Assembly: GCF_009805705.1 (NCBI RefSeq)
Contig: NZ_VSMB01000001.1
Span: forward strand, 124,001-188,000
From: Ruania rhizosphaerae
GTDB lineage: Bacteria; Actinomycetota; Actinomycetes; Actinomycetales; Beutenbergiaceae
Length of the DNA stretch: 64,000 bases
Direction: 5' to 3'
Position numbers and translations under genes: made by a program. The notes under the pieces were generated by a model that saw only the letters and a program-made list of their open reading frames with translations, did no database searches and was not told the origin of the DNA. Shown in pieces: positions 2,477 to 42,247 of this stretch; within the stretch, counting starts at the first letter, position 1; each line of letters opens with the position of its first letter.

Positions 2477-2537
2477 CTGGGAACCCTACGACGGTCTTTC
2501 GTCCAGGTAGCGACCACCCGCTCGCGGCCCAACGACG

Positions 2538-3227: not shown

Positions 3228-3305
3228 GAACGCATGTCACCAGGTCGCGCCCGATCGCGCCAGTCCACGGGCACTGGCACCACGCGGGCCGACAGGACCG
3301 GGACA

Positions 3306-24443: not shown

Positions 24444-26750
24444 CTACCCGGACCTGGGTTCTACCCGCGGTTCGAGGTGAACCGTCGCGCCGTCCGCGAC
24501 CACAGTCCGAGGTCCAGGCGGACACCCGTCCCGTGCAGCCTCCGGGGCAACGGCCGCGACGGTAAAGTCCGCTCCCTGTGCCTCCAGGGCGATCGTCCCG
24601 CGAGCGTCGAGACCGACCGACAGCCGACCGTCCTGGCCGTCGCCGAACACCAAAGGATCCGCGCCAACCTCCGATCCACTGACATACGGGGCCAGCGTGA
24701 GATCGGTCCAGCCCTCCCGGGGCCGTCCGCTCTGCCGGTAACCGAGTACAGCGCCGTCACGAACAAAGATCGGCAGGCCCTCCGGCCGATACAGGGGCGC
24801 GTCGACGACGTAAGAGCGACCACCCGCATACATCGCGCCAGACCAGAAGTCGTGCCAGATGCCCGGTGGGAGGTACACACTGCGCTCCTGCCAGCCCTCG
24901 TCGGCCACCGGAGCAACGAGCAGCGAGCGCCCGACCAGCACCTGATCCCATACCGACGCAACGCGGTCGTCGTCGGGATAGTCGAAGATCAGCGGCCGGA
25001 CCATGGGAACGGCACGCTCGACGGCGTCGATCGCCGCGGAGTAGAAGGTGGGCGCGAGGCGGTGCCGGAGCCGCATGAACGTGAGCAGCAGCTCCGAGAC
25101 GGGTTCACGATAGCGCCACGGCAGCTTGGGGTCCGTCCGAACGCTGCTGTGCAGGCGCGGTACCGGGACGAAGAGGAACCCGTGGGCGATGCGGCGAATC
25201 ACGTTCTCGTCGCTGTCGATGAGCCCCAGGCCCGAGGAAGCGTGTTCGGTGAATCCGCCGAGGTCCACGGAGGAGAAGGGGAAACCGGTCATCGCAGTGT
25301 TCATGACGAAGTTGAGGTCTTCGCGCACCCGGCTCACCCCGGCGGAAGTGTCCCCCGGCCACGGGATCGCCACCGTCTGGTCCCCGAGCCATCCGCCCCG
25401 CGTCAGCGTGTAGCTGGGTTGGCCAGTGAGGCGACGGGTGCGAGTGGTCAGGTCCTGATTCCACATGCTGCTGTAGAAGTTACGGGACGGAACACCACTG
25501 GGGAGCTTCCCTTCGACTCGTTCGCTGTTGTCGATCCACCACCCTGCGGCGCCGTCGGATACTCGTTGCGCATACTGGCGCCAGGCCCATTCCTCAGCCT
25601 CAGGATTGCCCAGGTCGGCGACCCACTGCTCGTGCGTACCGTCGCGCAGGTAGCCGCGAGATCTCCCCTCAGCCGCCACCTCACCGCTGTACATCCTCGT
25701 GTTGACGTGCAGAACGAGATCGATCTGCCGCTCCTGCAGGTCGGTGACTAGACCCGCGGACGTCCCGTAACGCTGTTGGTCCCATTCCAGATTCGCCCCG
25801 TCACCGCTCTCCTCGTCCTTGAAGAACGTTCCGGCGCGCCAGTGCAGATCGAGGGCAAGCACGTCCAAGGGAATCTCCTGGACCGCGAACTGCTCCACCC
25901 AGGCGCGATAGTCGTCTGCGGACGCCTCCCCCGCCCACGAGAACCAGGCCCCGAACCATTGCGGTCGCGGCACGGGTGGACGCCCCGTCAACGCGTGCAG
26001 CAGCGTAATCCACTCCTGGGGACCCTTCCCCGCACTCATCACGAGGTCTACCGGGCCGTCCGGGATGTCGAGCGACCACTCGAGTGGGTTCTCCTGCCCG
26101 AGATCGACGTACACGTGCGGGTATGGATTGAGCAGCACTGCCGCGAACGCTCCGGGTGAGCAGAAGGCGGGAATCGGAAAGCCGCCGTAGTCACCGCGTT
26201 GATGGTAGGCCTTCACCGCGAGCATGTCCGAGGCCGTGCCCGACTTGTCCGGGTCGCTGATCCGTCCGCCGAGCCCCAAGACGGGACGCTCAGGGCGGCG
26301 AGTGAAGACCAGACGGACGGCACCGCTGTCCGGATCCCGCGCCACCGTGGTCGAGTGGGTCACGCACTCGCCGGTGTAGCGGCGGGTCACGGCCATGCTC
26401 AGGTCGGGGTAGCCGAGGTGGAGGACCGTTCCCCCGACGGCGATGCTCACCTGGGAGCCGTCGTCACTGAGTTCGCTGGTCCCGCGATCCCGGCCCGCGC
26501 GCAGCACCCGACGGGCGATGTCACTCTCCGGCGAACCGTGCCTTCCGAGCCGCACACGGACCGAGCCATCGACCTCGGCCTCAGCATGCACGCTCAGCTC
26601 TGAGTTGTGCAGTCCGACCAAGCGTCCCTCGCGGTAGAACGGTCGCAGGTCACCGATCGGATCGAGGGTCTCGTCGGAACTCTCGAGGCGCCACTCCATC
26701 TCAGCAGGCCAGGTGATGTCCTGGTGACGCCTGGTTCTCCTGATCCTCAC
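24444..26750 (-). CDS. Glycoside hydrolase family 31
   Basis: A 768-residue GH31 enzyme: N-terminal beta-sandwich, catalytic TIM barrel (about residues 270-600) and C-terminal sandwich domains. The nucleophile Asp is in GWWIDNSE (about 407) and the acid/base Asp in WPGDTSAG (about 467). GH31 enzymes act on alpha-linked glucose, xylose, galactose or sulfoquinovose. No signal peptide, so it works on imported oligosaccharides. The GTG start overlaps the upstream stop (GTGA); an ATG at 26699 is an alternative. Last gene of the leftward operon, 25 nt from the convergent fuconolactonase. Confidence 0.9.
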   Translation of the reverse strand: MRIRRTRRHQDITWPAEMEWRLESSDETLDPIGDLRPFYREGRLVGLHNSELSVHAEAEVDGSVRVRLGRHGSPESDIARRVLRAGRDRGTSELSDDGSQVSIAVGGTVLHLGYPDLSMAVTRRYTGECVTHSTTVARDPDSGAVRLVFTRRPERPVLGLGGRISDPDKSGTASDMLAVKAYHQRGDYGGFPIPAFCSPGAFAAVLLNPYPHVYVDLGQENPLEWSLDIPDGPVDLVMSAGKGPQEWITLLHALTGRPPVPRPQWFGAWFSWAGEASADDYRAWVEQFAVQEIPLDVLALDLHWRAGTFFKDEESGDGANLEWDQQRYGTSAGLVTDLQERQIDLVLHVNTRMYSGEVAAEGRSRGYLRDGTHEQWVADLGNPEAEEWAWRQYAQRVSDGAAGWWIDNSERVEGKLPSGVPSRNFYSSMWNQDLTTRTRRLTGQPSYTLTRGGWLGDQTVAIPWPGDTSAGVSRVREDLNFVMNTAMTGFPFSSVDLGGFTEHASSGLGLIDSDENVIRRIAHGFLFVPVPRLHSSVRTDPKLPWRYREPVSELLLTFMRLRHRLAPTFYSAAIDAVERAVPMVRPLIFDYPDDDRVASVWDQVLVGRSLLVAPVADEGWQERSVYLPPGIWHDFWSGAMYAGGRSYVVDAPLYRPEGLPIFVRDGAVLGYRQSGRPREGWTDLTLAPYVSGSEVGADPLVFGDGQDGRLSVGLDARGTIALEAQGADFTVAAVAPEAARDGCPPGPRTVVADGATVHLEPRVEPRSG

Positions 26751-28088: not shown

Positions 28089-29558
28089 TTAGTGCAGGCC
28101 GCGTTGGCCGGACAGACCGCGCGTTGGTGGAGCATCGGGGCCGGCACTGCCGCCGCTGTCGGCGCGACCCGGGTTTCCGATCCACTTCCCCTCGCGCGTC
28201 CACTCTTCGGCTTCTACGCCCAGCTCCGAGACCAAGACGTTCGAGAGCCGCTCGAGGACGTCCTGGTGGTCGGGCGAGGAAGCCAGGTCGTCGAGTTCGG
28301 CCGGATCGACATCCAGGTCGAACAGCTGCCGTTGGTTTCCGTGGGGGTAGTAGATGAGTTTGTACCGGTCGTCGCGGGCCATGCAGGTGGCCTTCACCCC
28401 GGCTCCGACGGCGCCCGTGAAGTGCCCACGCTGCGCCCCGGTGACCACGGAGCGGCCGTCGAGCCCAGCGGGTGGGTCGATGCCGGCCAGGTCGAGGAGC
28501 GTGGGCATGACGTCTTGGAGCCCGCATAGTCGCTGGTCCACCTGGCCGGGTGACACGCGGTCGTCCCCGACGGGACCGGTGAGGATCATCGGCACCCGCG
28601 CGGCGCCTTCGTAGAAGAGTGACTTGGCCCAGGTGCCGTGGTCGCCGAGCATCTCGCCGTGGTCTGAGGTGAACAGGATCACCGTGTCCTCGAGCATGCC
28701 TTCCTCACGCAACGTGCCGATGACCACACGTAGTTGGTGATCGATGTGGGTGCATAGGGCGTAGAACGCCCGCCGGGCGTCCTCGCGCAGAGCTTCCGGT
28801 GGTGCCGAGCGTTGCCGTTCGCGCACCGGCCAGGGCGCTGCGTCCGGATCATCCGCCCACTGCCCGTGGACCGGTGGGTCCATCTCCCGGCGACGGTAGA
28901 GATCGAGGTATTCCGCGGGTGGGACCAGCGGCGGGTGCGGGTGCGTGTAGGAGAGGTAGAAGAATCCGGGCCGGGTGGGGTCCCGGCGCTTGATCTGGCG
29001 CGCCATCTGCTCCGTGGCCCAGTTCGTCACATGCAACCGTTCCGGCAGGTGCCACGCGCGGGAGAGGTACTGGTTATTGCCCATCCCGTGCGTGAAGGCC
29101 TGACCGTGGAACCCAGCGTCGGTCAGCGCAGCCTCGTAGTCGTCGACCACGCCCCACTGGGTCCGACCTTCTTCGGTGAGCAGGACGTCGTCGAACCCGA
29201 TGCGGTCCCGTTGCGGGTGCACATGGAGTTTCCCGACGGCGTAGGTCTGGTAGCCGTGGTCACGGAACGTTGAGGCGAGGGTCGCCAGGTCCGGCATGGG
29301 CGCTTCCGGTTCGTTCCACCTCACGCCGTGGGTGCGGGCCGTGGTCCCGGTCATCAGCCCTCGGCGCGCGGGAACGCACACCGGCGTCTCGCTGTAGGCG
29401 CGGGTGTAGCGGATCCCGGTCGCGGCCAGCTCGTCGAGGGTGGGCGTCTGCACGACGGGATGACCAGCCGACTGCAACAGGTGCCCGGGCCACTGGTCGA
29501 CGGTGACGAGGAGGACGTGCGGGCGGCGCGCCGCCGGCGTCTCTGCAGCTGCCGTCAT
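28089..29558 (-). CDS. Sulfatase (formylglycine-dependent)
   Basis: A 489-residue type I sulfatase that removes sulfate esters, probably from an imported oligosaccharide. The modification motif CVPAR (Cys61 to formylglycine) and the metal-binding VTVDQW near the N-terminus are present, as is the TSDHGEMLGDHG metal motif at about 290-302. There is no signal peptide, so it is probably cytoplasmic. The ATG overlaps the stop of the DUF1961 gene (ATGA), with GAGGAG upstream. No formylglycine-generating enzyme is visible in the window. Confidence 0.94.
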   Translation of the reverse strand: MTAAAETPAARRPHVLLVTVDQWPGHLLQSAGHPVVQTPTLDELAATGIRYTRAYSETPVCVPARRGLMTGTTARTHGVRWNEPEAPMPDLATLASTFRDHGYQTYAVGKLHVHPQRDRIGFDDVLLTEEGRTQWGVVDDYEAALTDAGFHGQAFTHGMGNNQYLSRAWHLPERLHVTNWATEQMARQIKRRDPTRPGFFYLSYTHPHPPLVPPAEYLDLYRRREMDPPVHGQWADDPDAAPWPVRERQRSAPPEALREDARRAFYALCTHIDHQLRVVIGTLREEGMLEDTVILFTSDHGEMLGDHGTWAKSLFYEGAARVPMILTGPVGDDRVSPGQVDQRLCGLQDVMPTLLDLAGIDPPAGLDGRSVVTGAQRGHFTGAVGAGVKATCMARDDRYKLIYYPHGNQRQLFDLDVDPAELDDLASSPDHQDVLERLSNVLVSELGVEAEEWTREGKWIGNPGRADSGGSAGPDAPPTRGLSGQRGLH

Positions 29559-30262
29559 CTCGCGATCTCCTCGTCGTGTGCTGCCTCTTCGAGGAGCGCT
29601 ACCTCGAGGTCGGTGTACTCGCCGATCAGGGGTGCCATTTGCCGGAATCCGATCTGGCCGCCGGCCAACACCTCCCCGGTGGTGGCGTCGTCGGTCCAGG
29701 TGAAGCAGCGCAGCGCGTTGATCCAGAACTCCACGTGGGGCCCGTCTTTGATCACGGTGATGGTGTAGGGCGGGTCGGCGTCGGCTACGTCGGGGATCGG
29801 GTCACCGCCTTGCGTCACGAGGTGGAAGCCCGGGCTCTTGCGCAGGTTGCAGGTGTGGAAGGCCCGTTCGTGGGGCTGCTTGCGGCGGAAGTAGGACACG
29901 TGCAAGGTGCGCAGGTCACTGCTGTGGTATTGCGGGTACTCACCGGTGCGCCGGGCCAGGGCGTCGTCGTGGACGTTCTCACCGCCCATTCCCGTGGCGG
30001 CGAAGAACATGATCGCCAGGCCCGGTTCGCGGATCGGCCAGAACTTCCACCGGATCGCCACCCGATCGGGGAGAACCTCCGGACACCAAAACACGAGATT
30101 GGCGGCCTGCCCGTCCTCGACCGGCCTCGTGCTCTCGAGCCGCATCCGCCCTTGCGGGAATGTCACCACGCCGTCTCCCTCCATCCGGAATCCGTCCACG
30201 TCCGACGGCGACCGCAGCGGGTTGGCATAGATGGTGCGACCGAGCGCGGGGTGCTCTGGCAT
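29555..30262 (-). CDS. DUF1961 family protein (lectin/lyase-like fold)
   Basis: A 235-residue protein of the DUF1961 family, a beta-jelly-roll-like group found in polysaccharide-utilisation loci. Conserved stretches include WKFWPIREPGLAIMFF, YHSSDLRTLHVSYFRR and CNLRKSPGFHLV. No signal peptide is visible, so cytoplasmic action on an oligosaccharide is likely. ATG with GGAGGATC upstream (strong). It lies between the esterase/propeller fusion and the sulfatase, with overlap to the latter. The biochemical activity is not established to my knowledge. Confidence 0.82.
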   Translation of the reverse strand: MPEHPALGRTIYANPLRSPSDVDGFRMEGDGVVTFPQGRMRLESTRPVEDGQAANLVFWCPEVLPDRVAIRWKFWPIREPGLAIMFFAATGMGGENVHDDALARRTGEYPQYHSSDLRTLHVSYFRRKQPHERAFHTCNLRKSPGFHLVTQGGDPIPDVADADPPYTITVIKDGPHVEFWINALRCFTWTDDATTGEVLAGGQIGFRQMAPLIGEYTDLEVALLEEAAHDEEIAR

Positions 30263-30296
30263 GGGGATCCTCCAGGTCTCAGATGTCCACGGCTTC

Positions 30297-32222
30297 TCAG
30301 ATGTCCACGACGCAGAGCTGGGAGTAGCCGGAGGCGTCGCTGGCGAACAGGACGCTGCGTGAGTCGTGGGACCAAACCGGGTGCAGGTGTGTGCCCCGGT
30401 GAGAGTGATCGGTGACGGCGACTTCGACCAGCTGGCGGATGGAGTGGTCGGTCGTGTCGATCAGGTTGAGGGTGGCGATGCCCTCACTGTTGATGACATG
30501 GTCGACCACGATCCATCGCCCGTCCGGGGAGAAGGATGGGTGGCCGTGGCCGCCGATCGCATCGGCGGCCAGCTCACGGTCCCCGGTGAGGGTGTCGATC
30601 AGGACCAGGCTGTAGCCGGGGCGGTCACCGAATGCCGCGTTCGCGAGAAGACGTCGTCCGTCCGGATGCCAGCTCGGGTGGTTCCCGAACTCACCGAGCC
30701 TGCGTAGGTCGCTGCCGTCAGCATTCACCGAGTAGAGGTCCTTCACCCGCGGAAGCTCGGCGAACTTCGTGTCGTAGAACTTCTCGTTCGTGAAGACGAA
30801 CATCAACCGCTGACCGTCACGAGACCACTTGGTGTGCTTGATGTACAGGTGCCAGTCCGCGATCTCTGCACGCCGAGGATGGAGGTCCAGCGCGTCCTGG
30901 ACCGTGGCGACAGTCCGCTCGCCAGCATCGGTGAAGGAACGGATGACGACGCCGCTCGTGGTCTTGGAGCGCCGGACGCTTTCGTCGTCGCGGCGGGCAC
31001 GATCGGTGAAGTAGACGAGTTCATCGTGACCGGGGCGCATCATCCGCAGGTCGCCCGGTGTGGACTCGAGTGCACCGGTTGCCATATCGACCGTCGAAAC
31101 GAGCGGGCCGCGTTCGTCGACGTCCCGGAAGTACAACCGCGCGCCGTCGGCCGACCACTGCGGCATCGCACCATCATTGGCCGTCATGGCCGCCGATCTG
31201 GCCACCACTGTCAGATCCGATCCGTCCGGCCCCATGACACAGATCTCGCCATCACTGCTGCCACGGTGACGGCTGAAAGCGATCCGCCCGTCCGCACGCG
31301 ACCACGGTGGCAGGTCGTAGTACCCGTGTACCGAGTGAGCCCGGCCGTGGGTCAACTGACGGATCGTCGATCCGGTGATCGGATCGACGCGCCGCGTGCT
31401 GCCGCCCGTGTCAGATTCTGTGGCATCACTCGAAGCGTCCGCGGCGGCCAGCACCAGATCGACAATGGCGTCGGCCACGTACTCACCAATCGTCCGGGCA
31501 CCGAGGAAGGAGGAGTGGCTATCGTCCTGCAGGCCGTCGGGGAACTGGGTGCTGGGTGCGCGGTGGGTGAAGTAATCGACCGACCCCTCCGGACCCAGCC
31601 GTTCGTACAGCTCGTGGGTCATCGCGTGCAGGTCGATCAGTGACAGGGACCGTTCCGTAGCCAGCTCGCGGACCACCTGCGGGTACCGCCCGTGGGTGTC
31701 GGTCAGGGTCGCGCCATCCCACACGCGTCGCGCCACCGACGTGCACAGGACCGGCGTGGCTCCCGCAGCCTCGACCTCGTCCACGAAGCGGATGAGGTTC
31801 GTGCGGTACTGACCGCCCGCACCCAGGTGCTCGTGCTTGGCGTCGTTATGACCGAACTGGATAAGCACGACATCACCCCCGCGCACCAAACCCAACAACT
31901 CACCCCACAGGCCGCTCTCCCGGAACGACTCCGTACTAGCGCCTCCCTGCGCGAAATTGCACACCGGCACCGTCAGCGGCGGCAGCCCCCGCTGCACGCG
32001 GCGAGCAGTCACAAGAGCGTTCAACTCAGCACCCAGGTGACTTCCCCACCCAAACGACGGCTTCTCGTGGATAGGACGCGAAGCGACGGTCGAGTCACCC
32101 GCCAGGTAGATGGCCGGACCCCCGGTTCGGCGGGGCCGCAGTCCGTGGTCGGTCTTCTCCATCGCGTCCTCTCTGGTGGATCGAACGTTCTGATCCTCAA
32201 ACTCACGCAGCGAGGCGGTCAT
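30297..32222 (-). CDS. Fusion of SGNH esterase (rhamnogalacturonan acetylesterase-like) and TolB/oligogalacturonate-lyase-like propeller
   Basis: A 641-residue two-domain enzyme. Residues about 36-262 are an SGNH esterase: AGDST (Ser44), GHND (Asn126) and a DDSH triad end (Asp233/His236), as in rhamnogalacturonan acetylesterases. Residues about 278-641 form a beta-propeller with repeated WSxDGxR blades and late His-rich motifs (GHGHPSFSPDG, THLHPVWS) that recall PL22 oligogalacturonate lyases. The lyase call is tentative. The ATG at 32222 overlaps the permease stop; an ATG at 32162 (AGAGGA upstream) would remove 20 residues. Confidence 0.8.
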   Translation of the reverse strand: MTASLREFEDQNVRSTREDAMEKTDHGLRPRRTGGPAIYLAGDSTVASRPIHEKPSFGWGSHLGAELNALVTARRVQRGLPPLTVPVCNFAQGGASTESFRESGLWGELLGLVRGGDVVLIQFGHNDAKHEHLGAGGQYRTNLIRFVDEVEAAGATPVLCTSVARRVWDGATLTDTHGRYPQVVRELATERSLSLIDLHAMTHELYERLGPEGSVDYFTHRAPSTQFPDGLQDDSHSSFLGARTIGEYVADAIVDLVLAAADASSDATESDTGGSTRRVDPITGSTIRQLTHGRAHSVHGYYDLPPWSRADGRIAFSRHRGSSDGEICVMGPDGSDLTVVARSAAMTANDGAMPQWSADGARLYFRDVDERGPLVSTVDMATGALESTPGDLRMMRPGHDELVYFTDRARRDDESVRRSKTTSGVVIRSFTDAGERTVATVQDALDLHPRRAEIADWHLYIKHTKWSRDGQRLMFVFTNEKFYDTKFAELPRVKDLYSVNADGSDLRRLGEFGNHPSWHPDGRRLLANAAFGDRPGYSLVLIDTLTGDRELAADAIGGHGHPSFSPDGRWIVVDHVINSEGIATLNLIDTTDHSIRQLVEVAVTDHSHRGTHLHPVWSHDSRSVLFASDASGYSQLCVVDI

Positions 32223-33118
32223 CCCTTGAGCGCCCCACCCATGATGGTGGCCCCCCGCAGAACGATCCGCTGGGCGAAGATCAGGACCAGCAGCACCGGA
32301 AGCATGGTCAGCAACGTGGCAAGCACGACCTCTGGGATACCGATGTCGGACTGCACGATGGAGTTCGGATTGAGTTCGGGTGCCACCGAGGCCAGGAGCG
32401 CGAGCCCGACCGGCAACGGGAAGTCATCACTCGAGAGCATGATGTACGGCAGCAGGAACTCGCCCCAGTTCCGGGTGAAGGAGAAGAAGGTCACCAACGC
32501 GGCGATCGGTGCCGCAAGCGGCATCGCCACCTTCAGGAAGACCTTCCACTCGCTGCATCCGTCGATCCGGGCCGCGTCATAGACATCGCGACCGATCGTG
32601 CTGGAGAAGTAGATAAAGGTCAGGTAGAGCCCGAGCGGGAAAACCGCCCCTGGAAGAATGACGGCCCACCTGGTTCCAACCAGTCCTAGCGCCACCATCT
32701 CCAGGAACTGCGGCAGCACGAGCGCACCGCCGGGCAGCAGAATCAGACCGAGGGTGGCCATGAGGATCGGCTTGCGCATCCGGAAGGTGCACGCGCCGAG
32801 CGCATACCCAGCGGGAACGGTCGCCACGAGCGTCAGCACCATCTGCGCGCCCGTCAGGATCACGGTGTTCCCCAACCACCGGTACAAGACGCCGTCGTTG
32901 AACTCGGCCAGGTGCTCCCACGACTCCCCGACCCGCGCGAAGGAACCGAACGCGAAGGGGTGCTCGGTCGCCAGTGCGGCACCTGATTTCGTTGCCGCCA
33001 GGACCAGCCAGAGCATCGGCAGGATCGCGAAAGCTGCCCAGAGCAGCAGGCCGATCCAGGCGAATGTGCGGGCCGCCGAAGCAGACAGGATCGTGCGATC
33101 GATTCGCATATCACGCAT
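32219..33118 (-). CDS. Sugar ABC transporter permease, MalG type
   Basis: A 299-residue permease with six helices and the EAA loop VYDAARIDGCSEWKVFLKVAMP near residue 190. The open frame extends to 33415, but the ATG at 33118 is 2 nt from the stop of the partner permease and begins a normal N-terminus (MRDMRIDRTILSASAARTF) before the first helix, so I use it. Forms a heterodimer with the 33121-34065 product; no ATPase is encoded nearby. Confidence 0.92.
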   Translation of the reverse strand: MRDMRIDRTILSASAARTFAWIGLLLWAAFAILPMLWLVLAATKSGAALATEHPFAFGSFARVGESWEHLAEFNDGVLYRWLGNTVILTGAQMVLTLVATVPAGYALGACTFRMRKPILMATLGLILLPGGALVLPQFLEMVALGLVGTRWAVILPGAVFPLGLYLTFIYFSSTIGRDVYDAARIDGCSEWKVFLKVAMPLAAPIAALVTFFSFTRNWGEFLLPYIMLSSDDFPLPVGLALLASVAPELNPNSIVQSDIGIPEVVLATLLTMLPVLLVLIFAQRIVLRGATIMGGALKG

Positions 33119-33120
33119 AT

Positions 33121-34065
33121 CTAGACCTCCACCCGGAACATCCCGGTCTTCTTCACCACGAGCACGGCCCCGCCCAGGCCGAGCAGGAGCAGCTGGATCG
33201 ACAACGCCGCTGACGCTGGGAAGTTGCCGTACTGGTAGGCGAACGTGTAGGCCAGTTGCAGCGGCGAGAAGTTGGTCCCCACCGCACCGTTCGTCACCGC
33301 TGACATCAGCTGCGGCTCGGCGAACAACTGCGTGGACGCGGCCACGCTCGTGATCAGCAGGTACGCGACCCACTTGCGCAGCAGGGGCAACTTGATGTGC
33401 CAGACCATCTGCCACGCGTTAGCACCGTCAATGGATGCCGCTTCCTCCACCTCCTGAGGAACAGACGACAGCGCGGCGAACATCAGCAAGATGCCCTGCC
33501 CCGAGGTCCACACGGCAATGATCGCGAACAGCACCGCCAGACTCGCCGGGTTGCCCGGCCGGACCACGTCGTAGAACTGCTCCATCCCCAGCGACTCCAG
33601 CAACCCGCCGATCGGCGAGACCCGCGGGGTCAGCAGGAACAGCCACAGCAGCACGGCAGCGACACCGATCACCGAGTGCGGCAGGTAGTACAGCACCCGG
33701 AACGTCGACGCCACACCGGTCCTGCGCCCGTGCAGCAAGAGGGCCAGCCCGATTGAGATCACCAACGTCGGCACCAGGAACACCAGGGCGTACACCCCAA
33801 GGTTCTTGAACGTCGCCACATACCGGAAGTCGGTGGCCACGGTGATGAAGTTTCCGATCCCGGCGAACCCTCCTCCGGGCCGGACGAACGCAAGGTAGAC
33901 CGCATACACCGCCGGCAGGAACGCGAAGGCGACGAACAACAGCACATACAGGCTGGACAGCACATACCCGGCAGTTGCCTGTCCACGCGTCACGGACCGG
34001 CCCGAGGGCCGGTCGGTGGGCACCGACCGGCTCCGCGGGGGGCGTACCGCAGTGGGAGCACTCAT
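33121..34065 (-). CDS. Sugar ABC transporter permease, MalF type
   Basis: A 314-residue permease with a basic N-terminal tail, six helices and the EAA loop VEEAASIDGANAWQMVWHIKLPL at about residue 205. It is the first permease after the binding-protein gene (37-nt gap) and 2 nt from the MalG-type permease. It imports the glycan breakdown product bound by the 34103 lipoprotein. Confidence 0.92.
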   Translation of the reverse strand: MSAPTAVRPPRSRSVPTDRPSGRSVTRGQATAGYVLSSLYVLLFVAFAFLPAVYAVYLAFVRPGGGFAGIGNFITVATDFRYVATFKNLGVYALVFLVPTLVISIGLALLLHGRRTGVASTFRVLYYLPHSVIGVAAVLLWLFLLTPRVSPIGGLLESLGMEQFYDVVRPGNPASLAVLFAIIAVWTSGQGILLMFAALSSVPQEVEEAASIDGANAWQMVWHIKLPLLRKWVAYLLITSVAASTQLFAEPQLMSAVTNGAVGTNFSPLQLAYTFAYQYGNFPASAALSIQLLLLGLGGAVLVVKKTGMFRVEV

Positions 34066-34102
34066 GCGCTCACGCCTGGGTAGTGGTTGATCATCGCGGC
34101 GA

Positions 34103-35461
34103 TCATCCTTCCTCGACGGTCCAGCCGGCCGCCTGCGCCTCGTTCACGATGAGCTCTTGCCACGCGGGGACCAGGTCGAAGATGGACTCACCCTGTCGCA
34201 GACCCGGTTCGACCGCTTGGGCGTAACTGGAGCGGATGGATCCAACGTTCAGCTCGTCCCAGTAGGGGGACAGCTGCGACTCCGACGCCTCGACAACGTC
34301 GCCCAGTTCCCCGTCTTCGACATAGAACATGTCGGTGTGGTTCTCGATCCAGTTGTCCTGCGCGGGCCGGTAGGCGGGGAAGGTCGGCGTCTCCGGCGCC
34401 GTCTGATAGGGGCCGGTGGCCATCCAGGCCGCGAGCTCGGCGGCTGCCTCCAGGTGCTCGCTGTGCCGCGAGACGGCATAGGCAACACCGCCGCCGTAGT
34501 AGTTGTGCACCTCGTCCTCGTCCTCCCAGCGCAACGGAGGAGCGATACCCACAGACCCCTCAGGCCATTCGTAGGCGTTGATGAATCCGTACTGACCGCG
34601 GTGCAGTGGCTGGACCGACATCAGCAGGTGCCGGTTCGCGGCGTAGTCGGCGATGAACTCCGGGTCATTGGGCGACATGGGCGAGAGTGCCCCGGCGGCG
34701 AGCATGTTGTCGATCATCTCGAACACACGCGTGCAGTTCGGATCCTCCAGATCGACCTGCAGGCTCATATCGCCCACCACCTGCGCCATCGGGCACCGCG
34801 AGACCGGCAGGTACTGCATGGTGGCGATGTGGCCCATGATGTACCCAGGGTGCTCTTCCGCCAGCTGCAGCCCCAGCGCCTCGAACTCTTCCCACGTGGT
34901 CGGCAACTCGTACCCGAACTCCTCCATCAGGTCCTTGTCATACCAGAGCACCAGAGGCGAGAGGTCGTTGTTGATGCAATAGAGGGCGTCCCCGTCCGTG
35001 CATAGGTCGAGGATGGCCGGCGAGAACTCGCCGAGCAGATCCTCCGGCACGTACGGCGAGATGTCCGCCGAGAACTCATACGGCGCGTCGGCGAAGGCCG
35101 CCATCTGCTGCGTCTTCACTACGATCATGTCCGGCCATCCCTCGCCGGCCTGGTTGGCCAACTGGAGCCGCGACTCGATGTCATCAGGCAACGTCTCGAT
35201 CTGGAGATCGACCTCCGGGTTCTCGTCCTGGTACATCTCGAACCCAACCTGACGGTTCGGATCGGTCCAGATGACCAACTCGGCGGGACCTTCAGCCTGC
35301 GACGCCGTCTCGGTGGCGGGATCCTCCGTACCTTCGCCCTGGCCCGGGACACATGCGGCCAGAGCCAGCGCCGCGCCGATACCGAGCACGACCCAGGGCC
35401 TCCCCCGGCGACGTCCTGTTGCGTGATCGAACCGTCCGGTCCGCGTTCTCCCTGCAGCCAT
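34103..35461 (-). CDS. Extracellular sugar-binding lipoprotein (family 1)
   Basis: A 452-residue solute-binding lipoprotein. After a basic N-terminus (GRRRGRPW) comes a hydrophobic segment and lipobox ALAAC with Cys at about 37, then an acidic Glu/Thr-rich linker. The body begins LVIWTDPNRQVGFEMYQDENP, the classic family-1 start. The upstream frame reaches 35563, but the ATG at 35461 has GAAGGAG 8-9 nt upstream and places the lipobox properly. First gene of the leftward eight-gene operon; its promoter is at 35563-35591. Confidence 0.93.
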   Translation of the reverse strand: MAAGRTRTGRFDHATGRRRGRPWVVLGIGAALALAACVPGQGEGTEDPATETASQAEGPAELVIWTDPNRQVGFEMYQDENPEVDLQIETLPDDIESRLQLANQAGEGWPDMIVVKTQQMAAFADAPYEFSADISPYVPEDLLGEFSPAILDLCTDGDALYCINNDLSPLVLWYDKDLMEEFGYELPTTWEEFEALGLQLAEEHPGYIMGHIATMQYLPVSRCPMAQVVGDMSLQVDLEDPNCTRVFEMIDNMLAAGALSPMSPNDPEFIADYAANRHLLMSVQPLHRGQYGFINAYEWPEGSVGIAPPLRWEDEDEVHNYYGGGVAYAVSRHSEHLEAAAELAAWMATGPYQTAPETPTFPAYRPAQDNWIENHTDMFYVEDGELGDVVEASESQLSPYWDELNVGSIRSSYAQAVEPGLRQGESIFDLVPAWQELIVNEAQAAGWTVEEG

Positions 35462-35816
35462 CTCTCGCTCCTTCGGTGCGTGCTGTGCAGCGTCCTCATC
35501 GACTTCAGCGACCGTCGCGCGCAATGACCTGAAGCACCACTGCGGGCCGCGAATGAATACCAACCATATTCATATCGGCCAGGTCGGTCAACCACCATGT
35601 ATGCACTTCATTGCTCAGGAACCGCTTCACCAGGCGATCAGCAACGCAGCCTGCCGATCGACCGGATCGACTCTCCATTGTTGCTGTTGAGCGGTCAACC
35701 GCTCGCCCAAGGGTTCCCTACGACCGACGGATACTGGTTCGCATCACGCCGGCCGATCGGGCTAGCGATCAGCCAACGAGCCATGTATAGTTACCATCTA
35801 CTTGCTAGGAGGCGAC
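35462..35816. other. 355-bp divergent regulatory region
   Basis: No gene is seen. It holds the leader (about 95 nt) and promoter/operator of the leftward operon, a perfect 7+7 palindrome GAGCGGT-CA-ACCGCTC at 35690-35705, and a TATAGT -10 candidate at 35786-35791 for the GntR gene with a weak -35 (TAGCGA, 35763-35768). AGGAGG at 35807-35812 serves the GntR start. Confidence 0.6.
35553..35591 (-). promoter_or_regulatory. Promoter and operator of the leftward glycan operon
   Basis: Read on the minus strand: TTGACC (35591-35586), 17-nt spacer, TATGGT (35568-35563). A perfect inverted repeat ATGAATA-7 nt-TATTCAT (35553-35573) covers the -10 box, which is the position expected for a repressor site. 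The GntR regulator across the gap is the likely binder. Confidence 0.65.
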
Positions 35817-36599
35817 GTGGAGAAGAACACCAAGAAGGCTGGCGCGTCGAACAAGGGAAGCCGCGCACAGACCTACCGGCCGGGCTACGAGATCGCGGCG
35901 GAGCGAATCCTCGCCCTGATCGACCGTGAGGGACACGCACCAGGCGACCGACTCCCCACCGAGAAGGACCTCGCCTCCCGCCTCGAGGTGAGCCACACCG
36001 TGGCGCGCGAGGCGATCAAGCTGCTCTCGGCCCGCGGTCAGGTTGTCACGCGCAAGGGGGCCGGCATTTTCGTCGCCAACCCCACTACCACCCTCACTCC
36101 GGGCACATGGGAACCGCTGCTGCTGCAGAACCTCGACCACGTCGAGATGCTCTACGAGGCGAGGCGGACACTCGAGGTCGAGGCAGCTGCGCAAGCGGCG
36201 AAACGCTCCAACCCTTCAGAGCTCAAGCAGATCCGGGATGCTGCCCAGGCCACGGTCGACGCGGCCGCCGAGGGAGCGTTCGACGCCTACATCGCAGCCG
36301 ACGAGCAACTCCATCTGGCGATCGCGCAGGGCTCGCACAACATGTTCTTCTGCTCACTCATCGAGAACCTCTCGGCGCTGAAGCGGCGAGTCATGACGGT
36401 CGGCTTCGAAGGTGAGGCAGGCGATGTGATCCGTCGTGGCGCGGGCGAGCATGCACGCATCGCCGCAGCCATATCGGATGGTGACGCCGACGAGGCCGGC
36501 GCAGCGATGGGCCACCACGTCGACATGGCACTGGATCAGTACCGGCAGCAAGTACAGAAGAGGCTCCTGCACGAGCCGCGCGAACCCATCGGAGAGTGA
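35817..36599 (+). CDS. GntR/FadR-family transcriptional regulator
   Basis: A 260-residue regulator with an N-terminal winged HTH (about residues 22-90: GYEIAAERILALIDREGHAPGDRLPTEKDLASRLEV context, then VSHTVAREAIKLL) and a helical FCD effector domain with the metal-binding Asp/His pattern (DEQLHLAIAQGSHN; HARIAAAI near 215). FadR-type regulators sense organic or sugar acids. The start is the GTG at 35817, 4 nt after AGGAGG; an ATG at 35802 lies before that site. The stop overlaps the sulfatase start, so the regulator is made with the sulfatase and reductase it probably controls. Confidence 0.92.
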   Translation: MEKNTKKAGASNKGSRAQTYRPGYEIAAERILALIDREGHAPGDRLPTEKDLASRLEVSHTVAREAIKLLSARGQVVTRKGAGIFVANPTTTLTPGTWEPLLLQNLDHVEMLYEARRTLEVEAAAQAAKRSNPSELKQIRDAAQATVDAAAEGAFDAYIAADEQLHLAIAQGSHNMFFCSLIENLSALKRRVMTVGFEGEAGDVIRRGAGEHARIAAAISDGDADEAGAAMGHHVDMALDQYRQQVQKRLLHEPREPIGE

Positions 36600-38074
36600 G
36601 CACCGTGTCGTCGAAGCGCCCGAACCTCCTCTATATCCTGTCCGATCAGCATGCAGCGTCGGTCATGGGATGCAGTGGAGACCCTGTCGCCCGCACACCC
36701 CACCTGGATCGGTTAGCGGACCGCGGCGTGCGCCTGACGAATCTGTACTGCCCGTCACCGATCTGCACCCCATCCCGCATGTCACTCCTGACCGGTCGCG
36801 AGCCGTATGAGAACCAGGTCTGGACGAACGAGAACATCCTCAGCGGCGCCCATGCCACCTGGCCGCACGCTCTGGGAGCCGCCGGATACCGCCCCGAGCT
36901 CGTCGGTCGCCTCCACTCCCGCGGACGCGACCAGCTGCTTGGCTACGCCGAGCGGGCAGTCGGAGACCACTCGCCCAACCACCCAGGGGGCCCAGAACCC
37001 GCTCGCGGCAGCCTCCACGGAACGAATGACCCGCTTCGGGTCAGTCTCAGCAAGACCGGAGCCGGTTCGAACCCGTACGAGTTTCACGACGAAGACGTCA
37101 CTGAGCACGCGGTGACCAGGCTGGATGAGATCGGAAGGGCACGAACCGCCGGCGACAGCACACCGTTCGCCCTCTCCATCGGCCTCATGCTCCCGCACCA
37201 GCCCTATGTGGCCAACCGGGAGGACTACGACTTGTTTGACGGCGCAGTGCCCCCACCCCGGTACCCGTCTGTGTCCGAGCACCCATACCACGCGGGGTGG
37301 CGAGCAGAGACGGGAATCGACGACGTCACCGCCGACGAGTCCAGCCGCGCCAGAACCGCGTACTACGCCTTGGTGTATCGCATGGACGCCATGATCGGAC
37401 GGATCCTCGACGCGCTTGACCGGAACGACCTGGCTGAGGACACCTTCGTCATCTATCTCTCGGACCACGGGGATCACTTGGGAGAGCACGGACTCTGGTG
37501 GAAGCAGACGTTCTTCGAGGAGTCCGTTCGCATCCCCGGCATCGTGTCCTGGCCGGGCCACCTGCCGGCCGGCACGACCTGCGACCGGGTGGCGTCCGGA
37601 ACGGATCTGACGGCAACTCTCCTGGACGCTGCGGGTGCACCTGCCCTGCCGAACAGTTCCGCGCGTTCTATGATCCCGATCCTGACGGAGAACACCGCGA
37701 ACTCCAGCGCATGGGAAGACCGGGCATTCTCCGAGTACGTGACCACGAGCGGTCGCACCCACCGGATGCTCCGGCGCGATCGTTGGAAGTTCTGCTACTA
37801 CGCCGATCAGCCGGAGCAGCTCTTCGATCTGGAGTCCGATCCACACGAGCAGGTCGATCTTGGCCAGCACCCCGACTACGCGACGATCGTCGCCGAACTA
37901 CGCATGGACCTTCTCCACGACTGGGACCCGGAGACCGTTCAGCGTCTCTGTGCGGAGAGCGCACGCGATCTCGAGGTGCTCCGGGTCTGGGCTGAACGCG
38001 TCGAGCCTCCCGAGCAGCATCGATGGCTGATGGAAGAGAGCATGAGCCGCCTGGACCAGCCGCAACCGGCGTGA
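36596..38074 (+). CDS. Sulfatase (formylglycine-dependent), second copy
   Basis: A 492-residue type I sulfatase, distinct from the 28089 copy. The modification motif CTPSR (Cys57) and the N-terminal YILSDQH metal site are present, with YLSDHGDHLGEHGLWW at about 286-300. No signal peptide. The GTG start overlaps the regulator stop (GTGA) and the stop overlaps the aldo/keto reductase start (GTGA), so the three are translated as a unit. Two different sulfatases in one locus imply a glycan sulfated at more than one position. Confidence 0.94.
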   Translation: MSTVSSKRPNLLYILSDQHAASVMGCSGDPVARTPHLDRLADRGVRLTNLYCPSPICTPSRMSLLTGREPYENQVWTNENILSGAHATWPHALGAAGYRPELVGRLHSRGRDQLLGYAERAVGDHSPNHPGGPEPARGSLHGTNDPLRVSLSKTGAGSNPYEFHDEDVTEHAVTRLDEIGRARTAGDSTPFALSIGLMLPHQPYVANREDYDLFDGAVPPPRYPSVSEHPYHAGWRAETGIDDVTADESSRARTAYYALVYRMDAMIGRILDALDRNDLAEDTFVIYLSDHGDHLGEHGLWWKQTFFEESVRIPGIVSWPGHLPAGTTCDRVASGTDLTATLLDAAGAPALPNSSARSMIPILTENTANSSAWEDRAFSEYVTTSGRTHRMLRRDRWKFCYYADQPEQLFDLESDPHEQVDLGQHPDYATIVAELRMDLLHDWDPETVQRLCAESARDLEVLRVWAERVEPPEQHRWLMEESMSRLDQPQPA

Positions 38075-39048
38075 CACCCCCGGAGCGGATGTCCCTGTTC
38101 AGCGGCTCGGTGACCACGTCCGGTCAGATTCCGCTCTCACTCGGTTGCGCTCAACTGGGCAATCTCCATCGACACTTGAGCGATGAGAGCGCCGCATCGA
38201 TCGTCGAATCGGCGTGGGACCACGGTCTCCGATACTTCGACACGGCACCCCACTACGGGCTCGGCCTGTCGGAGCGACGGCTCGGGCAGTCTCTGCGCGG
38301 GCGACCGCGTGGCTCCTTCATCATATCGACGAAGGTCGGACGCCTGCTGGAACCGCGTTCAGTTGACGGCATGCCCAGCCGCGATCACCTCCACGATGTG
38401 CCCGCCACACACGAACGCGTCTGGGACTTCAGCCGGGACGGTGTGCGGCGCTCGCTCGAGGAGAGCCTCGAGCGACTCGGGATGGATCGCGTGGACGTCG
38501 TGTACCTCCACGACCCGGATGACCACGCCGCGGAGGCCCTGGATGACGCCTACCCGGCACTGGAAGAGCTCCGCGCTCAAGGAGTGGTGCGCGCCATCGG
38601 CGCAGGCATGAACCAGTCGGCACTGCTCACCCGGTTCGTCCGCGAGACCGACATGGACGTGGTCATGATCGCGGGTCGCCTCACCTTGCTGGACAGCTCG
38701 GCCACCGACGACCTGGTGCCGGCGTGCTCCGATCGTGGCGTCGGCATTGCTGCGGCAGGCGTGTTCAACTCGGGAGTCCTCGCCACGCTCGGCTCGGATG
38801 AGCCCGTGACCTACGACTACGCGCCCGCACCCGATGCCGTGCTCCACCGAGCGCGGCGCATCCAGGATCTCTGCCACTGCTATGGCACGGACCTCGTGGC
38901 GGTTGCACTCCAGTTCCCGCTCAGGTTCGGACCGGTCGCGACCGTCACAGTGGGCTGCAACAGCGCCGAGCAAGTCGCGAGCAATGTCGCAGCCGTGCAC
39001 GCACCAGTCCCGGCGGGACTGTGGGAAGCACTCCAGCTGCAGCATTAA
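38071..39048 (+). CDS. Aldo/keto reductase (candidate L-fucose / D-threo-aldose 1-dehydrogenase)
   Basis: A 325-residue TIM-barrel oxidoreductase of the aldo/keto reductase superfamily: LGCAQLGNL at the start, YFDTAPHYGLGLSERRLGQ (Asp/Tyr of the catalytic tetrad), STKVGR (Lys) and VVYLHDPDD (His). The subfamily with RLLEPR and GVVRAIGAGMNQ resembles D-threo-aldose 1-dehydrogenases, which oxidise L-fucose to the lactone. The GTG at 38071 overlaps the sulfatase stop; an ATG at 38089 is an alternative. The fuconolactonase at 23552 would process the product. Confidence 0.85.
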   Translation: MTPPERMSLFSGSVTTSGQIPLSLGCAQLGNLHRHLSDESAASIVESAWDHGLRYFDTAPHYGLGLSERRLGQSLRGRPRGSFIISTKVGRLLEPRSVDGMPSRDHLHDVPATHERVWDFSRDGVRRSLEESLERLGMDRVDVVYLHDPDDHAAEALDDAYPALEELRAQGVVRAIGAGMNQSALLTRFVRETDMDVVMIAGRLTLLDSSATDDLVPACSDRGVGIAAAGVFNSGVLATLGSDEPVTYDYAPAPDAVLHRARRIQDLCHCYGTDLVAVALQFPLRFGPVATVTVGCNSAEQVASNVAAVHAPVPAGLWEALQLQH

Positions 39049-39121
39049 TGCTATCTATAGGAAGCCGGTTTGCGCTTGAATAGCATCTACTGTTGCCTGT
39101 CATGCTCACATCTGGCATGAT
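39041..39121 (+). promoter_or_regulatory. Promoter and palindrome cluster before the secreted GH-like gene
   Basis: Contains AGCATTAATGCT (39041-39052, perfect palindrome), CTATCTATAG, and GAATAGCATCTAC (39078-39090); ATGCTAT and ATAGCAT form an inverted pair. TTGCCT (39093-39098), 17 nt, CATGAT (39116-39121) is a fair promoter. The CATCTAC word also occurs at the GntR promoter (TTACCATCTAC, 35791-35801). Confidence 0.4.
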
Positions 39122-39284
39122 TATCAGCGTCAGAGCCGACAGCGTTCGAGATGACTGGGCGATAGACCCTATCCATTGGGTCGCCAGGAACGCCGTTCCG
39201 CACGGCAGGAGCCAGCGCGGTCCACTCACGTCCCCCGTGAGTCCGGAGGCAGATGCTCACCCGCAACAAGGAGGTTCAGCGGCC

Positions 39285-41366
39285 ATGACCACGAACACAC
39301 CGATCGACCGTGAGGCGGGCTCACCCACCGGCCCCGCCCGGCGTACCGTTCTCGGCCTGGGTGCCGCCACGGCCGGCTGGTTCCTCGTGCCGACACCTGC
39401 GATCGCAGCACCGGGCGCACGCACACCACCGCACGCCACGTCGGGCAGCGGAACCGGGCGCGGCGTCCCGTTCTGGTACGACGCGAACCGCGTCCAGGGG
39501 CACACGCGCCTGATGATCGACCGCTATCACGACACTCCCCAGTTCTCCGACGCTGCCGAGCGCTTCCAGCAGCTGGGGGCCGGCGCGTTCACACGTCACG
39601 CCAAATTCGGCGACGAGCAGCCCTGGTGGCCCACGGCACTCCCACTCGGGCCGGACGGCAACCCCCTCTCGGACCACGACCGCATCATCAGGGGCGTGGA
39701 GGTCGAGGCGGGACGGAACATTCCGCAGGAGTACATCGACTATGCGCATAGCCTCGGCATGCGGGTCATCGCGTACTACTGGCACATGTCGGAGGCCTGG
39801 TACCGGGACAACGAACCCTCCTACATCTGCCGCACGCCCGACGGCGACCCGCTCGAACACGGGAGAGGTACCCACCTCGACATCACCGGTCCGTACGGCG
39901 ACGTCGTGCTGACCCGACTACGTGAGCTCGCCGCGATGGGGGCCGACGGGTTCTTTTTCGACGAGAACCACCTCCCCCAGGTGGGTGCCTGGGGGTCGAC
40001 GCTTGCACTTGACTGGGAATCCGAGACAAGCACTCCAGCGCCCGTCCCCCCAGGCGACCCGTCATCGTGGCCCACCTGGCCGCCCGAGACCTGGAACGAC
40101 CCGTCCTACCTCGCCTATCTCGACTTCCGGGCACGCCGGATCGAGGACACGTTCCAGTACTGGATGGACGACGTTAAAGCCGACTATCCGGAGATCGTCT
40201 TCATCATCAGCGCGACCGAGCTGCCGGGGATGACGAGGCGGGGAATGACCACGCGACTCGCTCGAGTCGCTGACTCGGCGAAGAACGAGTTCGACACCGC
40301 CTGGAAGCACAACTACAGCTACAACGTCTTCCTGGACTACCCCGACCTGCTGCAACCCGCGCACCATGTCCGCCAGGCACTGAGCTTCTCAGTGATGCGG
40401 GACTCCTCGGACGGTCGCCCTCCGCTGATCTGGGTGACAGGCTTGCCGAACGAAGACCACGCGGAGGGATTCGCCGCTTCCGTCACCACTTTCGGCGGCA
40501 TCGCCAGCATGGACACGCAAGAAGGTACGACCCTGATCGGCGAGGACCCGCCGGCCTGGCCGGACGGACTGAAGACCCCGCTCGCCGGCTTGGAGGCGGC
40601 GTTCGAGCTCGGCACCGCGATCTCGCCGCGCCTGGCGGGTACCAGGCCAGTCCGCTGGGCCGCCGTGCACTACAGCGAACGGATCCGCAATGCACGTGAG
40701 GGAGACTTCCGCGCTGCGTGGGAAGAGGTCATCTGGCCGACGATCGGTGTGTACCAGACCGTGACAGAGGACGGGTTGCCCATCGGGATCGTGAATGACC
40801 ATCAGCTCGCTGAGAACGAGCTGGACGGGTATCAGGTACTCATCCTGCCGAACCCCACCGAGCTCACGGGTGCAGAACAAGCGGCGGTGGACGACTTCAC
40901 TGCCGGTGGGGGCGCGGTCATTACGATGGACCCGTCGTGGGAGTGGAGCACCGAAGCCGGGAACCCGCTTGCGGCCGCATCGCTGCGCACCGCGCTCGCG
41001 CCCCACACCGGTTCGGCAACCGTTCAAGTCGTGGGTGGCCCAGCCGGACGGTACGGCGTTGCCTACGAACGTCAGGCACACACGTACACGATCGCGATCA
41101 CCAACGACTTCAGTTGGGTTCAGGACTCGGGCTATGCCAAACGCTGGGGAGACGGCACGATCAACCCCGCAGCTCCACCCGCCGAAGGTCTCTCGGTCCA
41201 TCTGCGCGACATGCCGAACGTGAACGCCCTCGCAGCAACTGATGCGGTCAGCGGCGAAGACCTCGACGTCGTCGCAACCGCGGACGGTGTGCGAGTGGAC
41301 GTCCCCGCCTTCGATCGGATGGCCTGCATCGTGGTCTCCTGCGGGAACACGAACCAGCCGTCGTGA
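39285..41366 (+). CDS. Secreted glycoside-hydrolase-like protein (GHL6 / beta-galactosidase-trimerisation type)
   Basis: A 693-residue exported protein. The N-terminus has a twin-arginine motif (ARRTVLGLG) and an AIAAPG cleavage region. Residues about 55-420 look like a hydrolase TIM barrel (YIDYAHSLGMRVIAYYWHM, then HLDITGPYGD and GADGFFFDENHLP with an Asp-Glu pair that could be catalytic). Residues about 490-590 resemble the flavodoxin-like trimerisation domain of GH42 enzymes. The family assignment is tentative. The ATG at 39285 follows AAGGAGG (39268-39274). Only clearly secreted enzyme of the locus, so it may make the first cut in the polymer. Confidence 0.65.
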   Translation: MTTNTPIDREAGSPTGPARRTVLGLGAATAGWFLVPTPAIAAPGARTPPHATSGSGTGRGVPFWYDANRVQGHTRLMIDRYHDTPQFSDAAERFQQLGAGAFTRHAKFGDEQPWWPTALPLGPDGNPLSDHDRIIRGVEVEAGRNIPQEYIDYAHSLGMRVIAYYWHMSEAWYRDNEPSYICRTPDGDPLEHGRGTHLDITGPYGDVVLTRLRELAAMGADGFFFDENHLPQVGAWGSTLALDWESETSTPAPVPPGDPSSWPTWPPETWNDPSYLAYLDFRARRIEDTFQYWMDDVKADYPEIVFIISATELPGMTRRGMTTRLARVADSAKNEFDTAWKHNYSYNVFLDYPDLLQPAHHVRQALSFSVMRDSSDGRPPLIWVTGLPNEDHAEGFAASVTTFGGIASMDTQEGTTLIGEDPPAWPDGLKTPLAGLEAAFELGTAISPRLAGTRPVRWAAVHYSERIRNAREGDFRAAWEEVIWPTIGVYQTVTEDGLPIGIVNDHQLAENELDGYQVLILPNPTELTGAEQAAVDDFTAGGGAVITMDPSWEWSTEAGNPLAAASLRTALAPHTGSATVQVVGGPAGRYGVAYERQAHTYTIAITNDFSWVQDSGYAKRWGDGTINPAAPPAEGLSVHLRDMPNVNALAATDAVSGEDLDVVATADGVRVDVPAFDRMACIVVSCGNTNQPS

Positions 41367-41372
41367 CCTCCT

Positions 41373-41425
41373 GAGCCGGCCGGCCGGGCAATCCTCAGCA
41401 GGCAGGATGCCCGGCCGGCCGGCTC
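41373..41425. terminator. Strong hairpin terminator after the GH-like gene
   Basis: Perfect 18-bp stem (41373-41390 with 41408-41425), almost entirely G/C with repeated CCGG, and a 17-nt loop. GTTTCG follows. It ends the glycan locus before the SDR gene. Confidence 0.8.
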
Positions 41426-41500
41426 GTTTCGTCCTGGGGTACCGTCGTGTCCTGCCCACCGGCGAAACCATCCCCGCTGTCGATAGGAAACCGGCACACC

Positions 41501-42247
41501 GTGACCTCACCCCCCGCGGAACAACCTGTCGTCGTCATCACCGGCGGCTCGGCTGGCATCGGCCGGGCCGTCGGTGAGCGCCTACACCGCTCCGGGTACC
41601 AGGTGGTGAGCCTGTCCCGTCAGGCGGCCGACCCCGAGTCGGACTGGGTGCCGGACGTCCAGCACGAGGTGGACGTGGCCGATGCCGACGGCGTCGCTAC
41701 CGTCGCCGCGCGGGTACTGTCGGAGCAGGGCCGGGTGGACGCCGTGGTCACGTGCGCCGGGACCGTCACCCGAGGCGACCTCATCGAGACCTCAGCCGGA
41801 CAGGCAGAGCGACAGATCGCCGTCAACCTGCTCGGGACGATGAACGCCTGCCGCGCCTTCGCCCCGGCGTTGCGGGCCCCTCAGGGCGCCATCGTCACCC
41901 TGAGTTCCTCGATCGCGGCCAACCCGCAGGGCTCGGTGAGCGCGTACGCGGCCGCGAAGGGCGGCGTGGAGTCCTTCAGCCGTGCCCTCGCTCTGGAGCT
42001 GGCGCCGGTGCGGGTGAACGTGGTGCGCCCCTCGCTGGTCGACACCGGCATCTGGGTGAGCGGCGGCCTGGACCCCGACGCCTACTCCACCCTGATCGCC
42101 ACCCGGAGCACTGAGTACCCCCTCGGCCGAGTGGGGCGCCCGGAGGACGTCGCGGCCGCCGTCGCGTTCCTGCTCTCCGAAGACGCCGCCTGGATCACCG
42201 GCACCGTGCTCCCGGTCGACGGCGGCGCCGACCTCATCGGCCGCTAG
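41501..42247 (+). CDS. Short-chain dehydrogenase/reductase
   Basis: A 248-residue SDR with the cofactor motif ITGGSAGIGRAVG near the N-terminus, NxxG-like VTCAGTV, catalytic Ser in VTLSSSIA and YAAAK (Tyr/Lys) and the C-terminal TGTVLPVDGGADL that closes classical SDRs. The start is uncertain: the frame is open from 41447, but the GTG at 41501 begins just before the first strand. Alone in its transcript. Substrate unknown. Confidence 0.9.
   Translation: MTSPPAEQPVVVITGGSAGIGRAVGERLHRSGYQVVSLSRQAADPESDWVPDVQHEVDVADADGVATVAARVLSEQGRVDAVVTCAGTVTRGDLIETSAGQAERQIAVNLLGTMNACRAFAPALRAPQGAIVTLSSSIAANPQGSVSAYAAAKGGVESFSRALALELAPVRVNVVRPSLVDTGIWVSGGLDPDAYSTLIATRSTEYPLGRVGRPEDVAAAVAFLLSEDAAWITGTVLPVDGGADLIGR

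Follow-up and report, generated by a model that had tools for sequence, protein, structure and literature searches.

The gene studied here, P0001, lies on the forward strand of a 64,000-nucleotide window from Ruania rhizosphaerae (the whole stretch of DNA that was analysed), downstream of genes for a regulator, a sulfatase and an aldo/keto reductase (AKR) and upstream of a short-chain dehydrogenase (SDR) gene (Table 1). The opposite strand carries a partner block, as well as genes for a Gfo/Idh oxidoreductase and a GH31 enzyme; an amidohydrolase gene lies at 23552-24415. Within the block, the sulfatase, DUF1961, GDSL-PD40 and solute-binding proteins were named from Pfam and NCBIfam, and the two permeases by eye.

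P0001 is a real, conserved gene. Compared with its 90% ortholog (L003, genome G105), it shows, over 692 codons, 57, 28 and 217 changes at first, second and third positions, respectively, concentrated at the third; its GC3 is 0.82. Short palindromes occur upstream, at 39005-39065, and had been taken in the earlier note for a palindrome-rich promoter. Conservation of these palindromes in the 90% ortholog is poor, and a scan of 38900-41600 gave no sigma-70-like site, so a conserved palindromic promoter was rejected. Downstream of the gene, the 18-bp element first described as a terminator is indeed a perfect inverted repeat, nearly conserved in the 90% ortholog, and its stretch folds far better than shuffled sequences (z -5.35). 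Its function is less certain than its existence: the hairpin lacks a T-run and a terminator scan found 0 in the region, which leaves the name terminator as a plausible one.

Table 1 Features of P0001 and of its surroundings in the window.
Feature	Position	Strand	Basis or remark
Partner block: sulfatase, DUF1961, GDSL + PD40 propeller, two ABC permeases, solute-binding protein	28089..35563	-	Conserved, syntenic with L004 in G189
FCD-type GntR regulator	35802..36599	+	Context, upstream
Sulfatase without obvious signal peptide	36596..38074	+	Context, upstream
Aldo/keto reductase (AKR)	38023..39048	+	Context, upstream
Ribosome-binding site AAGGAGG	39268..39274	+	Read in sequence; kept in L003
CDS P0001, divergent GH151-like protein	39285..41366	+	ORF (ATG at 39285, stop ending 41366, 693 aa), orthologs L003/L004, codon-position pattern
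Signal peptide of Tat type (residues 1-42; RR in positions 19-20; AxA in the cleavage region)	39285..39410	+	By eye
TIM-barrel domain, about residues 62-430	39468..40574	+	AlphaFold model (ten-residue-block pLDDT 50-97, mostly >70), 6TVK match
K107, partner of Asp at 226	39603..39605	+	Alignment of 65 proteins
D226, proposed nucleophile directly after beta-4 (222-225)	39960..39962	+	Invariant in orthologs; aligned to GH151-type Asp
E335, proposed acid/base in beta-6 (331-337)	40287..40289	+	Invariant in orthologs; E/D in 55/65 rows
Flavodoxin/Rossmann-like (GH42-M-like) domain, about residues 455-580	40647..41024	+	Pfam, model; then C-terminal stretch shorter than relatives'
C-terminal part (residues 590-690 or so), presumably rich in beta structure	41052..41354	+	pLDDT <50
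18-bp perfect inverted repeat 3' of P0001, arms 41373-41390/41408-41425	41373..41425	+	Hairpin without T-run
Short-chain dehydrogenase (SDR)	41447..42247	+	Context, downstream

Full-length matches to P0001 occur in three of the eight genomes of its genus, namely its own, G105 (90% identity) and G189 (43%; ortholog L004). Three of 24 genomes of the family have one, as do 3/297 genomes sampled from the order (the same three) and 1/396 sampled from the phylum (its own); all these figures come from genome samples and pattern scans rather than complete censuses. Two scans of a genome-contig collection and two of viral contigs (profile A1 and the GH151-type profile A3) confirmed no relative. P0001 matched a single one of 72,556 plasmid records, across 16% of its length, and L004 matched 17, over at most 58% of its length and at about 20-23% identity; GHL6-type proteins on plasmids are annotated as 'alpha-amylase family protein' or 'family 10 glycosylhydrolase'. 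As far as sampled, the lineage is limited to the genus. Among the matches listed by a literature search, we recognised no paper on this clade. L004 (ORF 1468-3753) has a C-terminal FIMAH domain (residues 686-759, 36.4 bits with a cut-off of 24.8) that P0001 lacks; papers found on FIMAH were all unrelated, and for DUF1961 only a fungal effector paper appeared.

Parts of the surroundings are conserved along with the gene. In G105, the genes tested within 22001-44678 are conserved at 86-99%, apart from that of GH31. The GH31 gene (24447-26750) sits between those of the amidohydrolase and Gfo/Idh, and has no match there in the syntenic G105 (L140 11490-11563). Beside L004 in G189, we found counterparts of the solute-binding protein (64%), the permeases (81/69%), DUF1961 (63%), the sulfatase (62%), the propeller (61%) and the GDSL part (51%). 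The GDSL esterase-like domain and the PD40 propeller are fused in the window, at 30300-32222, and are separate genes in G189 (L138 13247-14359 and 17537-18625). The PD40 beta-propeller of the window is weakly like oligogalacturonate lyase, below the cut-off.

By eye, the N-terminus of P0001 is Tat-like (ARRTVLGLG...AIAA). The RRT triplet is invariant across the three orthologs, L004 reading SRRTFL. On L004, the TAT model of Pfam reaches 16.2 bits, under its cut-off of 22.7, and it has no match in P0001 itself. The N-termini of eight other locus proteins, also inspected by eye, have no obvious signal peptide. The motif supports the export proposed in the earlier note, which saw a Tat signal and called the protein the only clearly exported enzyme of the locus. 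As the sulfatases carry no obvious signal peptides, desulfation is probably intracellular and P0001 would act in the first, extracellular step.

Standard profile models do not assign P0001 to a family. All five Pfam matches up to E 10 lie under their cut-offs, including DUF4350 at 19.6 bits, and NCBIfam gives none. The weak GHL6 likeness suspected from the start is present: PF14871 scores 16.6 bits on P0001, 17.9 on L003 and 28.7 on L004, with a curated cut-off of 35, and filing the protein under GHL6 was rejected on that score. Filing under GH29 was rejected too, its Pfam domain being absent from the five matches, and so was GH42, as Glyco_hydro_42M (GH42M) reaches 14.2 of 25.8 bits and E227 is Asn in L004. 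Searching the sequences of solved structures with P0001 returned a single match, an allergen at E 1.8; profile A1 reached 6tvk at E 1.2 only, and the best match of L004 had E 1.1.

Deeper comparison is more informative. A profile of the three orthologs matches proteins in the same organism family over both domains and in the same order. We aligned 65 proteins (set A6): the mature part of P0001, its two orthologs and 62 relatives, a selection of our own within the phylum of the window. It leaves out near-duplicates (e.g. L093, L094, L098 and L101, and also earlier loci of the same genes), the partial matches L060-L068, L072, L076 and L077, L085 with one TGA, the weak PF14871 matches L031-L047, L051 and L052, and places left unfetched; the partial rows L058, L086, L090, L115 and L128 were retained. 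Rows are called Asp-type or Asn-type after the residue at the GH151 nucleophile site, and 'core GH151-type', in our own definition, denotes the ten Asp-type rows in which a Glu is aligned with the catalytic Glu of ALfuk2 (PDB 6TVK). Some searches used profile A2, which includes P0001, so that its own matches there prove nothing.

With hhalign, the three orthologs match the 15 Asp-type relatives with E 6.6e-22, the five non-core ones among them with E 1.2e-18, the ten core GH151-type ones with E 6.5e-14, and two Asn-type groups with E 2.8e-19 (24 proteins) and 6.9e-14 (23 proteins). Three reversed controls gave E 0.68, 0.32 and 0.31. With E values of 6.6e-22 to 6.9e-14 against 0.31-0.68 in the controls, membership of P0001 in the GHL6/GH151 superfamily is clear. 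The earlier note could not place the protein in an established CAZy family; this holds for ordinary models, and the profile-profile comparison it proposed now supplies the superfamily. Proteins of the Pfam GHL6 type (PF14871) match the profile of the orthologs collinearly over both domains and, like P0001, have a conserved acid at column 335. The core group is anchored to GH151 by L026 (the gene of row L056), which matches residues 30-668 of the 6TVK chain with E 3.2e-95. In these profile comparisons the orthologs are no further from one Asn-type group than from the non-core Asp-type rows, and the core is not nearest. In an unrooted tree of the 65 rows, the three orthologs, the 15 other Asp-type and the 47 Asn-type proteins form three groups meeting at one node, which leaves the sister group of the orthologs undecided.

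An AlphaFold model computed with three sequences had a mean pLDDT of 36 and was not used further. With the 65-row alignment, the mean pLDDT rose to 69.6 and the pTM was 0.78; confidence is mostly good over residues 57-549, short loops excepted, but not over residues 550-693. The barrel and Rossmann domains are thus modelled and match 6TVK, next to a low-confidence C-terminal part, in agreement with the TIM barrel and GH42-like flavodoxin domain of the earlier note. In VIA-align, the ALfuk2 structure 6TVK ranks first, with Z 24.7 and an rmsd of 4.1 over 468 aligned residues. PgaB follows with Z 22.6. Barrels of the PgaB/Cwp19 type share the barrel fold (Z 20.6-22.6), but only the first domain is aligned with them, over 293-319 residues; GH29 structures lie at Z about 19. 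Foldseek also places 6TVK first (E 1.1e-15, TMq 0.48). As the model was built from an alignment of the same relatives, it supports the relationship without proving it independently. In BFVD, the fold search gave seven matches at E <= 0.001, six to phage proteins and one to a giant-virus GH18.

GH42 enzymes resemble the model as well, in domain order and in the flavodoxin-like second domain. Among the matches listed by VIA-align, they reach Z 18.7-21.2 over 429-505 aligned residues, at least 3.5 units below 6TVK for even the best of them. In Foldseek, where their E values start at 1.3e-15 and their TMq of 0.49-0.54 is slightly over that of 6TVK, the two kinds of enzyme are practically tied. Together with the weak GH42M match, this could suggest that P0001 is a GH42-like beta-galactosidase or alpha-L-arabinopyranosidase. 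GH42 has a conserved Glu after beta-4. The residue that we take to correspond to it, E227, is not conserved in P0001's relatives, and with the Z difference and the sub-threshold Pfam score we regard this assignment as very improbable.

The active site is better compared with GH151. Passages of PMC10154630 describe ALfuk2 as a TIM barrel followed by a Rossmann domain and a C-terminal domain, with nucleophile D154 at beta-4, acid/base E235 at beta-6 and His503 contributed by the neighbouring monomer; these are residues 183, 264 and 532 of the 6TVK chain, whose numbering is higher by 29. In its model, P0001 shares the barrel and the Rossmann domain with GH151 enzymes (ALfuk2, Blon_0346 and Mfuc3), followed by the low-confidence C-terminal part, and in the alignment D226 falls on the Asp at the end of beta-4. 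At columns 107 and 226, 18 rows read Lys and Asp, 46 Gly and Asn, and one Ala and Asn, so P0001 differs from 47 of its 62 aligned relatives; the 18:47 ratio describes this set rather than the superfamily. The 47 Asn-type proteins are all acidic at column 335 (E 23, D 24). They may lack activity or work by a different mechanism, a choice that looks testable. P0001's own genome also encodes two members of the set, L053 and L137 (C43:166227-168311 and C43:169322-171265).

The earlier note had proposed the adjacent D and E of FFFDENHLP as a catalytic pair. Its first half agrees with the GH151 nucleophile. The second is Asn in L004, and 60 of the 62 further relatives have W, I or M there; a lack of a conserved acidic pair in homologues had been named beforehand as counting against the proposal, and the D226-E227 pair was rejected. 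As judged from the alignment, D226 with E335 is the likelier pair. Column 335 holds E in 29 rows, D in 26 and P in ten, and is acidic in 52 of the 62 other aligned proteins. The rows with P are exactly those of the core GH151-type group, whose Glu lies three positions earlier, opposite A332. Glu occupies GH151's catalytic column in 11/65 rows, the ten core ones and one of Asn type. The five non-core Asp-type rows are arranged as in P0001: column 335 reads E in three of them and D in two, and GH151's catalytic column lacks Glu.

No alignment pairs the acid/base Glu of GH151 with a Glu of P0001. It falls opposite A332 (T in L004) in L-INS-i and in one hhalign run, opposite D337 (Thr in L004) in another hhalign run, and opposite a residue past 340 in a 16-row alignment. 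Given this disagreement around beta-6, E335 is the most conserved candidate and not a proven one; located near the position of the GH151 Glu, it may replace it. P0001 is likely catalytic through D226 with E335.

Other hallmarks of GH151 are missing. The motif containing His503, FxSHxxAP, has no equivalent, as none of the three orthologs contains SHxx(A/S)P. It is present in seven of the ten core rows; L116 and L117 read GHAYAP, and the partial row L115 ends before the motif. The AKxxHG motif of the core rows becomes AKFGDEQPWW in P0001, without the His of xHG. With these two His-containing motifs absent, the pocket could be very different from that of GH151, or inactive. After G543, P0001 has 150 residues, compared with 187-237 in 12 listed relatives with near-complete matches (L058, L086, L090, L115 and L128 are cut matches, and the 231 residues of L004 include its extra domain). 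Together with the motif losses, this shorter stretch argues against a standard fucose pocket. Filing under GH151 was rejected, because two of the defining features examined, the acid/base Glu and the His of the neighbouring subunit, are lacking in P0001.

P0001 might still be in essence a GH151 exo-alpha-L-fucosidase, diverged in sequence, that frees L-fucose from a sulfated fucosylated glycan. Beyond the 6TVK match and the common Asp nucleophile, the neighbourhood would suit such an enzyme: a non-phosphorylative deoxysugar pathway would need lactonase, AKR and SDR functions, P0001 is flanked by an AKR and an SDR, and the amidohydrolase (23552-24415) has an L-fuconolactonase model as its only NCBIfam match at E <= 1e-5. 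That match, with 199 bits, is far below the cut-off of 400, so the deoxysugar is only a hint. Moreover, in 38 kb around L004 there is no tblastn match (E <= 1e-10) to the AKR, SDR or amidohydrolase, nor to GH31 or the regulator. P0001 itself is only 16% identical to the core row L056, and the column of the acid/base Glu holds Ala (Thr in L004), which, along with the missing SHxxAP and xHG, makes a true fucosidase unlikely.

The same losses, the short C-terminal stretch and a long stem of the lineage (1.74 changes per column in the unrooted tree) would also fit a secreted pseudo-hydrolase that binds a polysaccharide without cutting it. However, D226, K107 and E335 are invariant between orthologs at 43% identity, and changes in the gene fall mostly at third positions. 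We consider the loss of activity an improbable explanation.

P0001 is a divergent form of a known kind, a secreted relative of GH151. Our preferred reading, with a probability of roughly 55%, places it in the GHL6/GH151 superfamily as a secreted glycoside hydrolase with a deep lineage of its own, which would use a retaining D226/E335 mechanism in a step of sulfated-polysaccharide breakdown. After export by Tat, it would bind a sugar of the sulfated polysaccharide in the pocket of its TIM barrel, where D226, which ends beta-4, would attack the anomeric carbon, with E335 in beta-6 as the putative acid/base. The neighbouring ABC transporter may then take up the products, and inside the cell the sulfatases, the GDSL esterase and other enzymes of the locus would desulfate and trim them. 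Computation supports the gene itself, its superfamily, the predicted fold, the equivalence of D226 and the conservation of E335, whereas activity, mechanism, the acid/base role of E335, substrate and the order of the steps are inferred.

The substrate is possibly a sulfated polymer, as judged from the neighbouring genes. The sulfatases do not fix it further, since the nearest solved structures of both are choline-sulfatases by name, followed by sulfatases of many kinds. More tentatively, and with odds somewhat below even, the three orthologs could found a glycoside hydrolase family of their own, with an Asp nucleophile as in GH151, the acid/base elsewhere in beta-6 and no subunit-shared His; secreted, they would cut a polymer of sulfated deoxysugars outside the reach of GH151.

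What GH151 enzymes act on in nature is itself debated. Poor activity on fucosylated substrates, and doubt over whether these are genuine fucosidases, are expressed in parts of PMC8395109, and a passage of PMC4723247 reports that Mfuc3 cut pNP-fucose and almost none of the natural substrates tested. Contrary reports, in passages of PMC10154630 and PMC8395109, describe activity with fucosyl disaccharides as substrates, and Blon_0346 acting on Fuc-alpha-1,2-Gal. Unlike P0001 with its Tat-type N-terminus, the bifidobacterial GH151 enzymes described in parts of PMC8395109 have no signal peptide. A secreted GH151 cousin among sulfatases makes sulfated glycans a testable substrate class, and D226 and E335 offer two definite targets for mutation. 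Should the activity prove new, a new CAZy family would be justified; otherwise P0001 is an ordinary divergent glycosidase. Elsewhere in the window, at 8729-10708, lies a gene for a repetitive, RCC1-like exported protein with, by eye, an LPETG-like C-terminus.
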